Positions 42,425 through 44,358 of a stretch of DNA of 64,000 nt are shown in pieces. The translations under genes were made by a program, and so were the position numbers. The stretch covers positions 1-64,000 of the forward strand of contig NZ_NJAG01000005.1 in NCBI RefSeq assembly GCF_002872335.1, read 5' to 3'. Position 1 is the stretch's first letter, and each line of letters starts with the position of its first letter. The notes below the pieces were generated by a model that saw nothing but the letters and a program-made list of their open reading frames with translations, had not been told where the DNA came from and made no database searches. Source of the DNA: Siphonobacter sp. BAB-5405 (GTDB taxonomy: Bacteria; Bacteroidota; Bacteroidia; Cytophagales; Spirosomataceae).

Positions 42425-43243
42425 TTGACTCATTACGAACAACTTGGCGTTTCTTCCCGGGCATCCATTGAAGAGATCAAGCGAGCGTACCGAAAGCTGG
42501 CCGTAACCTGGCATCCGGACAAAAATCCCGGTCAAACCCAGGCAGAAGAGCGTTTCAAGGCTATCAATGAAGCCTACCGGGTACTTTCCGATCCGGCTCT
42601 CCGAGCTTCGTACGATCTAAAGCTTACCTACGGAACTCAGCCCCCCGTTACGCCGCCACCGCCGCCCAGACCCCGCCCTACTCCGGTGCAGCCACCACGA
42701 CCTACGGTTCATCGCTGGCTGATTCCGGGCATTGGCTTACTGGTTGTATTCGTGGCGTTGGGGGTGGTTGCTTTTCAGCAATACGAACAGAAACAAGCCG
42801 TAACCGAAGTAGCGGATGCCACCCGGTTGCTAGTCGATGAAGATACGACCGCAGCGATGGGGAAACTTAACGAGGCCATTCACCACGACGAAACCCTTAC
42901 TTCGGCTTATCGTCTGCGAGGACAGGTATTATTGCGGTTACGAGAATTTCAGACGGCCTATCCGGATTTGTTGCGAGCCTCGCAGGAAGATCCTTTCGAT
43001 GAAGACTTGTACTTTAATTTGGCTACCTGTAGCTATTACCTGAAGAAGTACGCCCAGAGCCGCTCGCATCTCAACAAGGTACTGACGCTATCCCCTCAAA
43101 ATGGCAAAGCTCTGACCATGCGGGGAACCAACTTCTGGCTGGAAAAAGATTCCTTGCAAGCCTGTGAAGATTGGCAAAAAGCTGCCAGTTTGGGCGAAAC
43201 GGAAGCGAAAACTTTGGTTCATGACTATTGTAACCTACGATGA
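42425..43243 (+). CDS. DnaJ-domain protein with membrane helix and TPRs
   Basis: A 272-residue protein with a J-domain (residues 1-65; [20 protein letters not shown], the HPD triad in [10 protein letters not shown], then [14 protein letters not shown]), a proline-rich linker ([20 protein letters not shown]), one membrane helix ([20 protein letters not shown]) and TPR-like repeats to the C-terminus. The J-domain would be cytoplasmic and could recruit DnaK to the membrane; the TPRs would be periplasmic. The only start that fits is TTG. Single gene; the 479 bases after it hold no gene but many inverted repeats. Confidence 0.85.
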
Positions 43244-43261
43244 TACGATCATCGTTTATCT

Positions 43262-43690
43262 TAGACAGCATCAGGTGCGTTTTCCGTCCCGCTGAGACGG
43301 CTGGTGTTTTAGTCCGTATCGCGAACACCGCTCACTTCCTTTTGCTCGGTCCACCGTATTGCTAAGGGATTAGGCGGCTTGAGCCCGCCATGGAATGGGA
43401 TAGGACGGGGATCGGTTTATGTCGTCGACTATGCTAATACACTAATAAATATCAGAAGATGAAAACCCCTCCCGCCTATCACCGCGTAACGACCTACGAT
43501 AGCTGCAATGCGGTGGGCTAAAGCAGGCTATCGTTAGTCGTGGAGTGGCTGATAGGCTACCGAATAGCCGTGTATGCGGCCCCAAACTTCGTCTAGGTGA
43601 ATAACGACCTTCCAAAGGAGCCACAGATCGTTAAATAGAAAGAGGTTACTAGCTCTCCGTGTTTACTAGGACCGAATTCTACACTGTCTA
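43262..43690. ncRNA. Gene-free region with dense nested inverted repeats (candidate structured RNA)
   Basis: Between the convergent dnaJ-like and pyrE genes there is no credible reading frame. The region holds many pairable segments: CAGC/GCTG enclosing CCGTC/GACGG (43266-43303), GGTGTT/AACACC (43303-43308 with 43324-43329), GGCGG/CCGCC (43373-43389), and one long hairpin with GCCTATCA/TGATAGGC (43474-43481 with 43550-43557), CCGC/GTGG, ACGAC/GTCGT (43489-43493 with 43537-43541), ACGATAGC/GCTATCGT (43496-43503 with 43527-43534) and TGC/GCA. It does not carry the conserved sequences of RNase P RNA, tmRNA or SRP RNA that I would expect. Strand unknown. Confidence 0.35.
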
Positions 43691-43722
43691 GGAAAACGTA
43701 AATAGATAGAAATAAACGATCA

Positions 43723-44358
43723 TTACTGCCGCCACGTATCAGGCGATTGTCGCCACTCCTTGAGTGTATCTACCTGATCGTCGGTAATATAACCCAGAGG
43801 TACGGCAGCTTCTACTAGGGCATTATAGTTACTCAAACAGTGAAGCGTAACGCCTGCCTGCTGGAAATTTTGTTCGGCAACGGGAAAACCGTAGGTAAAA
43901 ATAGCCGCCATACCCACGATTTCAGCTCCGGCGTTTCGTAACGCATCTACGGCTTTCAATGAGCTTCCACCCGTCGAAATCAAATCTTCAATCACGACGA
44001 CTTTCTGACCCGCTTCCAGACGACCTTCAATCTGATTGCCCATGCCATGTTCTTTCGGTTTCGGACGAACGTATAGAAAGGGTAAGCCCAGCACATCAGC
44101 CACCAAAGCTCCCTGCGGAATACCCGCTGTGGCAACTCCAGCAATGGCTTCGACACCCGCAAACTGGGTTTTGATTGCCTCAGCGAGTGCTTCTTTGATG
44201 TACGTACGAACCGGAGCCGAAGAAAGCGTAACCCGGTTGTCGCAATAAATGGGTGATTTCCAGCCCGAAGCCCAGGTAAAAGGCGATTCAGGACTTAGAC
44301 GTACAGCTTTTACTTCCAAAAGCATTTCAGCCACGCGGGCTGCTACAGTTGATTCCAT
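43723..44358 (-). CDS. pyrE: Orotate phosphoribosyltransferase
   Basis: Converts orotate and PRPP to orotidine 5'-phosphate in pyrimidine synthesis; homodimer, cytoplasmic. The PRPP loop reads VVVIEDLISTGGSSLKAVDA, with FTWASGWKSPIYCDNR at the orotate site and FLYVRPKPKEHGMGNQIEGR in the flexible loop. At 211 residues it is of normal length. It is divergent from a Nudix gene and has a -7 box four bases before its ATG, which would give a leaderless transcript; no attenuator or PyrR site is seen. Confidence 0.96.
   Translation of the reverse strand: MESTVAARVAEMLLEVKAVRLSPESPFTWASGWKSPIYCDNRVTLSSAPVRTYIKEALAEAIKTQFAGVEAIAGVATAGIPQGALVADVLGLPFLYVRPKPKEHGMGNQIEGRLEAGQKVVVIEDLISTGGSSLKAVDALRNAGAEIVGMAAIFTYGFPVAEQNFQQAGVTLHCLSNYNALVEAAVPLGYITDDQVDTLKEWRQSPDTWRQ

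Follow-up and report, generated by a model that had tools for sequence, protein, structure and literature searches.

A dispersed family of foldable intergenic repeats in two sister species of Siphonobacter

The window analyzed here, a stretch of 64,000 nucleotides from Siphonobacter sp. BAB-5405, includes a 479-bp gap between genes (positions 43244-43722) with many segments that can pair, which raises the question of what kind of element occupies this locus. An earlier note, made from the sequence alone, considered the gap a candidate structured RNA, either new or a divergent version of a known one. The ORF calls confirm the convergent genes that it described on both sides of the gap (listed below). 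It found no credible ORF in the gap; two ORFs (43071-43328 and 43442-43624, both on the minus strand) overlap the gap mechanically, and the repeat copies discussed here, as far as inspected, have no ORF in common. The failure to recognize a known RNA was borne out by an Rfam scan, in which neither the window nor any of 20 further copy loci produced a match at the gathering score, leaving a known RNA family without support; at E values of up to 5, there was one match, at the chance level (E 3.9) and outside the gap.

The gap contains one copy of a foldable repeat family with about fifty members in two sister species and is probably not a one-off RNA gene. Of the proposal of a new RNA gene, structure and covariation hold up, whereas the single gene gives way to dispersed copies that show no consistent strand signal. 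The features of the locus are as follows.

42425-43243, plus strand: gene for a DnaJ-domain/TPR protein, one convergent neighbor of the gap
43247-43721, no strand: stretch in whose place the sister species has 67 unrelated bases, with flanks 95-96% identical
43282-43617, plus strand: repeat core, delimited by the conserved columns of 51 aligned rows from two genomes; 73 blastn matches in its own genome
43284-43428, plus strand: 5' half with unit A (match to covariance model R1, 127 bits)
43312-43406, plus strand: hairpin unit A, from the family alignment, with GTCC...GGAC at the base
43334-43341 with 43364-43370, plus strand: inner stem of unit A, from the family alignment
43343-43362, plus strand: apical loop of unit A, from the alignment; family consensus TGCTCnAGGCCACCGCATTGC
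43428-43456, plus strand: A/T-rich spacer between the units, from the alignment; its length and sequence differ from copy to copy
43449-43605, plus strand: 3' half with unit B (match to covariance model R2, 163 bits)
43453-43584, minus strand: reverse-strand R1 match over the half with unit B
43474-43557, plus strand: hairpin unit B, the long hairpin of the earlier note, with covarying helices (z -6.9)
43505-43525, plus strand: apical loop of unit B, from the alignment; reverse-complementary to that of unit A in the consensus
43723-44358, minus strand: gene for a phosphoribosyltransferase-domain protein that aligns to the products of annotated pyrE genes

The repeat family and its anatomy

A blastn search of the region against its own genome (G000) gave 73 matches, which were assigned manually to about 40 places, and the same search of the sister species (G001) also gave many, identifying 43282-43617 as a repeat with dozens of relatives. 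Covariance models of the 5' half (R1) and of the 3' half (R2) raised the copy count over that of blastn. All 52 stretches examined in G000 (51 fetched ones and the window copy) match R1 or R2 at E <= 0.01, and four of them hold two copies, for a total of 56 places. In G001, at least 46 stretches match at the same threshold, a few of them weakly (about 25-40 bits), and an additional remnant (66 bits) lies beyond these. The congener G002 has a single copy, at a site common to copies in G000 and G001 (L058 and L161), and an R1 search of G003-G005 found none. Under the stricter filters of the many-genome searches, R2 matched 3 of the 222 genomes sampled from the family and 1 of the 395 sampled from the class, namely, the window's own. 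Phage and plasmid collections yielded no match to the repeat, and an origin from these sources was rejected on that ground. A wide distribution was likewise rejected: a pattern for a 20-base motif occurred in 4 records of a genome contig collection, which may omit the genome of the window and those closest to it, and these were taken as chance; upon rescanning with R2, three gave matches confined to the 20-base motif, at E 0.08-0.15, whereas the remaining record gave none. The copies in G000 and G001 sit in intergenic stretches. The family, then, is non-coding, dispersed and restricted to one lineage. It is also apparently undescribed, in that titles and abstract openings in the literature contained no recognized account of it, which is weak evidence of absence.

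A typical copy spans 340-430 bp and consists of two hairpin units of about 135 bases each around an A/T-rich spacer, in the order 5' end block, unit A, spacer, unit B and 3' end block. In many copies, each model also detects the other half on the opposite strand, R1 matching unit B and R2 matching unit A in this way; the element is therefore built from two related units in inverted orientation. In the window, only the core belongs to the family, the outer portions of the gap not being common to it. The window copy is degraded in unit A, which is a mosaic of a short-form 5' arm and a long-form 3' arm. No long-spaced pair of A and B units was seen upon inspection of the R1 and R2 match lists. 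Extended stems are marked by the 9-mer CATTCCATG or its complement, which occurs 156 times in 98 copy loci (443 kb); 143 of these occurrences lie within 450 bases of the listed units, and the remaining 13, checked by eye, fall in unlisted R1 or R2 matches. An unpaired GTAG or CGTC tag at one end of the palindrome would be a trait of REPINs; most copies have CGTC in the 5' end block, within a segment able to pair with a nearby GACG. Some copies appear by eye to have imperfect inverted ends. A loop-loop pseudoknot (kissing loops of A and B) was considered and set aside because, judged by eye, a loop change in either unit has no counterpart in its partner; the complementarity of the two loops follows from the inverted relationship of the units. 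A micro-hairpin, CCATTCCATGG, recurs about 14 bases apart in some copies (L165, about 1482-1510, and other loci), as if stems grew by duplicating units.

The window site differs among genomes. Neither R1 nor R2 matches the G001 stretch at this site (L168), in which a short inverted repeat flanked by A and T runs, terminator-like by eye, sits between the same two convergent genes. A different palindrome, GGTTGGTGTCCTCACCAACC, is dispersed in G002 (42 matches) and G003 (22) and was absent from G000, G001, G004 and G005 when these were searched. Hairpins related to it, TTGGTGTCCTCACCAA, lie exactly at the window site in G002 and G003 (L169 and L170, in the interval from the DnaJ-like gene to pyrE), so that this gap houses distinct repeat families depending on the species. 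Tandem heptamers adjoin pyrE in the congeners (L169, L170, L171), for example, AACTGAA in G002 and G005 and AACTAAC in G003.

Folding, covariation and the sites shared by the sister species

The long hairpin at 43474-43557 folds exactly as described in the earlier note, with z scores of -6.9 on the plus strand and -7.0 on the minus strand, and none of 200 shuffles was as stable on either strand. The claim of structure beyond that of random DNA holds for this hairpin and only modestly for the whole 479 bp (z -2.0 with 2 of 100 shuffles as stable on the plus strand; z -2.8 with 1 of 100 on the minus strand). Folded as single-stranded DNA, the core has a z score of -1.5, and unit A of the window copy folds poorly (z +0.57 for 43316-43398). 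Covariation, which the earlier note proposed as a check, turned out to be strong. In a table of 28 copies and 48 pairs, 93.3% of the cells pair, and 25 of the 48 pairs carry two-sided changes, in 95 cells; none of 500 shuffles reached the observed pairing, number of two-sided pairs or number of two-sided cells, and sliding the partners by 1-3 columns reduced pairing to 29-42%. Derivation and testing of the pair structure used one alignment, which favors it, but the margin is very large. As the copies diverged, what persisted was the pairing of the stems and not their sequence.

Between the sister species, we compared 48 site pairs (46 + 2), covering 48 of the 56 G000 places; the other 8 lacked a G001 counterpart among the fetched stretches, and because G001 stretches were mostly fetched for carrying the element, shared sites are over-represented. 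On the G001 side, 43 sites have a modeled copy, one has a modeled remnant (L047a) and one a remnant seen by eye (L047b), and the remaining three (those of the window, L037a and L119) have no detectable element. At the last of these sites, the G001 stretch (L183) comprises about 950 bp without a modeled element, compared to about 545 bp with one in G000. Most pairs have flanks of about 90-97% identity, which falls to about 81-86% in some stretches, yet the orthologous copy is the nearest neighbor in just 8 of 25 cases for unit A and 8 of 20 for unit B, similarity between orthologous copies is patchy along the element, and some site pairs differ through in-place deletion of a hairpin. No two scored units within one genome exceed 0.917 identity, so that the dispersal of the family is old rather than recent; the closest relatives of the window copy are only 0.86-0.875 identical to it, so that its absence from the G001 site could reflect loss.

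One explanation of these patterns is that the repeats are old, immobile, hypermutable palindromes that neither transpose now nor did so recently, and in which replication template switching and gene conversion preserve the complementarity of the arms and swap segments. We consider this possible but doubtful. It fits the excess of two-sided over one-sided changes in the pair table and the in-place hairpin deletions, and template switching is documented, in the account of PMC8794818, as a source of compensatory changes in stems. It also fits the behavior of the arms: their form could be classified in 59 of 79 A units and agrees in 45 of these (Fisher p 8e-5), the other 14, including that of the window copy, being half-exchanged. 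At L041 and L066, which represent the same site and are nearly identical in sequence, both arms of one stem nevertheless differ together. However, this explanation does not account for the dispersal of some fifty related copies, and close orthologous hairpins indicate that arm correction is not fast. In 22 comparisons of such hairpins (identity >= 0.85), there were 65 one-sided changes (23 to or from G-U, 17 A-C and 25 other) versus 3 two-sided ones; when four comparisons with block changes are left out (hand count), 16 G-U, 11 A-C and 8 other one-sided changes remain, along with 2 two-sided ones. Given that 19 of these 35 one-sided changes break a pair, pairing at shared sites looks weakly constrained at best. 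The tally drew on 26 site pairs, or 38 of 45 unit comparisons, and the 7 omitted ones are all below 0.85 hairpin identity, leaving the set of 22 unaffected. In this set, stems and loops differ at similar rates (4.6 and 7.8%, respectively, in unit A; 9.2 and 6.6% in unit B).

RNA or DNA

Selection acting on a plus-strand RNA should tolerate G-U over A-C mismatches. When the hand-drawn helices are counted over all copies, the G-U to A-C balance on the plus strand is 62:31 in unit B and 73:71 in unit A, where three columns were omitted because of constant G-U or of module effects. In automatic folds, the ratio is 1.67 on the plus strand and 1.84 on the minus strand for the whole element, 3.98 and 1.91 for unit A, and 2.0 and 3.24 for unit B; after omission of columns with at least 30% G-U, the respective values are 1.11 and 1.02, 1.12 and 1.22, and 1.37 and 0.70. 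RNase P gave 2.86 in sense and 1.13 in antisense; it is a poor control that carries little weight because the sense ratio drops to 0.86 (antisense, 1.13) after the same omission, and its consensus fold has just 27 pairs, with 1 of the 27 sequences dropped for an odd locus length. Among whole copies, the plus strand is the more stable one in 13 of 46; for the separate units, the corresponding figures are 47 of 79 (A) and 22 of 58 (B). We read these data as showing no consistent strand-specific RNA signal, the hand count for unit B being the main contrary evidence.

With respect to the flanking ORFs, 90 copies from three genomes are tandem in the two orientations in 33 and 24 cases, convergent in 20 and divergent in 13, and 130 background gaps of at least 150 bp, partly from stretches near copies and likewise ORF-based, include 66 tandem, 25 convergent and 39 divergent ones. 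Convergent contexts are therefore not enriched (20/90 vs 25/130), and divergent ones are under-used (13/90 vs 39/130). A replication-strand bias was also considered: GC skew by element orientation was positive in 15 of 49 copies in the G000 set, which includes the one G002 copy (sign p 0.009), and in 19 of 42 in G001 (p 0.64), an inconsistent result that was not used.

A multi-copy family of structured non-coding RNAs, functional as RNA, would explain the strong covariation, the excess of G-U over A-C in unit B and, before G-U-rich columns are removed, the plus-strand ratio of unit A in automatic folds. Nevertheless, we find it improbable, in view of the even mismatch balance of unit A, the ratios that, once those columns are removed, lie near 1 on both strands in the whole element as well as in unit A, the minus-strand preference of unit B in automatic folds and the greater stability of the minus strand in 33 of 46 whole copies. 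The lack of a consistent strand preference, the mixed gene orientation and the pair-breaking changes at shared sites favor an element acting at the DNA level over a strand-specific RNA. A host transcription terminator or a supercoiling or nucleoid site at gene ends, roles that have been hypothesized for REP sequences (PMC3733652), is very unlikely: the long stable hairpins, the terminator-like inverted repeat at the window site in G001 and the under-use of divergent contexts would suit it, but convergent contexts are not enriched, some copies have lost a hairpin, and the constraint on pairing at shared sites looks weak.

Spread of the repeats and comparison with known systems

Dispersal, the plan of inverted units, maintained pairing, patchy similarity at shared sites and in-place loss of hairpins are what the data show. 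The repeats probably spread as passive mobile DNA, and we assign about an even chance to their being non-autonomous mobile DNA, lineage-restricted, non-coding and dispersed. This reading is supported by the number of copies in intergenic stretches (56 places in G000, no fewer than 46 in G001) and their restricted distribution; by the inverted-unit plan and the pairing kept across divergent copies; by the similar mismatch balance of the whole element on both strands; by the mixed gene orientation and the one-sided changes that often break pairs at shared hairpins; and by the three assessed sites without a detectable element in G001. The earlier note named a match to a decayed mobile element as one outcome that would speak against its RNA, and what was found comes close to that. 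Several observations point the other way. None of the compared sites is a clean empty site with a target duplication, the window site does not represent a simple insertion, and the absence there could be loss. A MITE of a DDE transposon would be expected to show such a duplication along with terminal inverted repeats that it has in common with an autonomous element; of these traits, the copies offer the imperfect inverted ends noted by eye in some of them. Most assessed sites are common to both species, so that movement is not recent, and the unit B mismatch count leans towards RNA. A search for PF01797 (Y1 transposase) in the six genomes revealed no mobilizing enzyme or autonomous partner: there were 12 matches, 3 of them in G000 and none in G001, and neither R1 nor R2 detected the element in any of the 12 loci, which leaves mobilization by RAYT/Y1 without support.

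Under the mobile DNA reading, stem pairing was kept probably because a trans-acting enzyme recognizes the folded single strand or cruciform, and the repeats would have spread as folded DNA on which that enzyme acted. Later, segments may have been exchanged between copies, or stems may have been rebuilt by one arm copying the other, and copies at shared sites drifted and lost hairpins through deletion. The family looks inactive now. More tentatively, and with low confidence, the repeats might be of a new, structure-borne type, such that the pair of inverted loops and the requirement for stem pairing are heritable, and stem sequences are swapped or rebuilt wholesale, with hairpin-directed overwriting of segments proceeding without a known transposase.

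Strong covariation, usually regarded as the hallmark of functional RNA, can thus occur in DNA repeats that are dispersed and lack any consistent signal of strand. The dozens of G000 and G001 site pairs, with flanks that are mostly about 90-97% identical, form a natural data set that is suited to asking whether compensatory changes originate from selection, template switching or gene conversion.

The best reading of the family is an old, structure-dependent, non-autonomous repeat with a plan like that of REPINs, but far larger. As described in PMC3116915, REPINs are inverted REP doublets predicted to form hairpins, and the present family resembles them in being a dispersed, intergenic, non-coding, within-genome family of inverted hairpin doublets, as the opposite-strand cross-matches of R1 and R2 attest. 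It differs in the size of the units, about 135 bases compared to the 20-40 bp given for REPs in PMC3733652, in the wholesale variation of its stems, and in that no associated RAYT was found by the PF01797 search of six genomes; given the unit size and the RAYT result, we do not class it as a REPIN. The CGTC-tagged REPs, which according to PMC3733652 have members in Bacteroidetes and other phyla, and whose extinction is discussed there, are likewise a palindromic family without a dedicated transposase, but are described there as 20-40 bp long, with loops of 4-5 bases and short unpaired tails. The bcr1-bcr18 repeats of the Bacillus cereus group are, in the description of PMC6542083, 100-400 bp long, group-restricted and endowed with features of mobile DNA, their mobility being tied to a TTTAT motif, and bcr1 has copies in the tens, as here; the present family is characterized by its plan of two inverted units. 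The stem-loop repeat families of 40 bacterial genomes (PMC2267715), likened here by general description rather than family by family, are also intergenic and share a common predicted secondary structure, their models mostly spanning 31-200 bp, with some longer. In its working, the family most resembles a REPIN (PMC3116915) or a bcr-type repeat (PMC6542083), and we place it among the structured, non-autonomous intergenic repeats.
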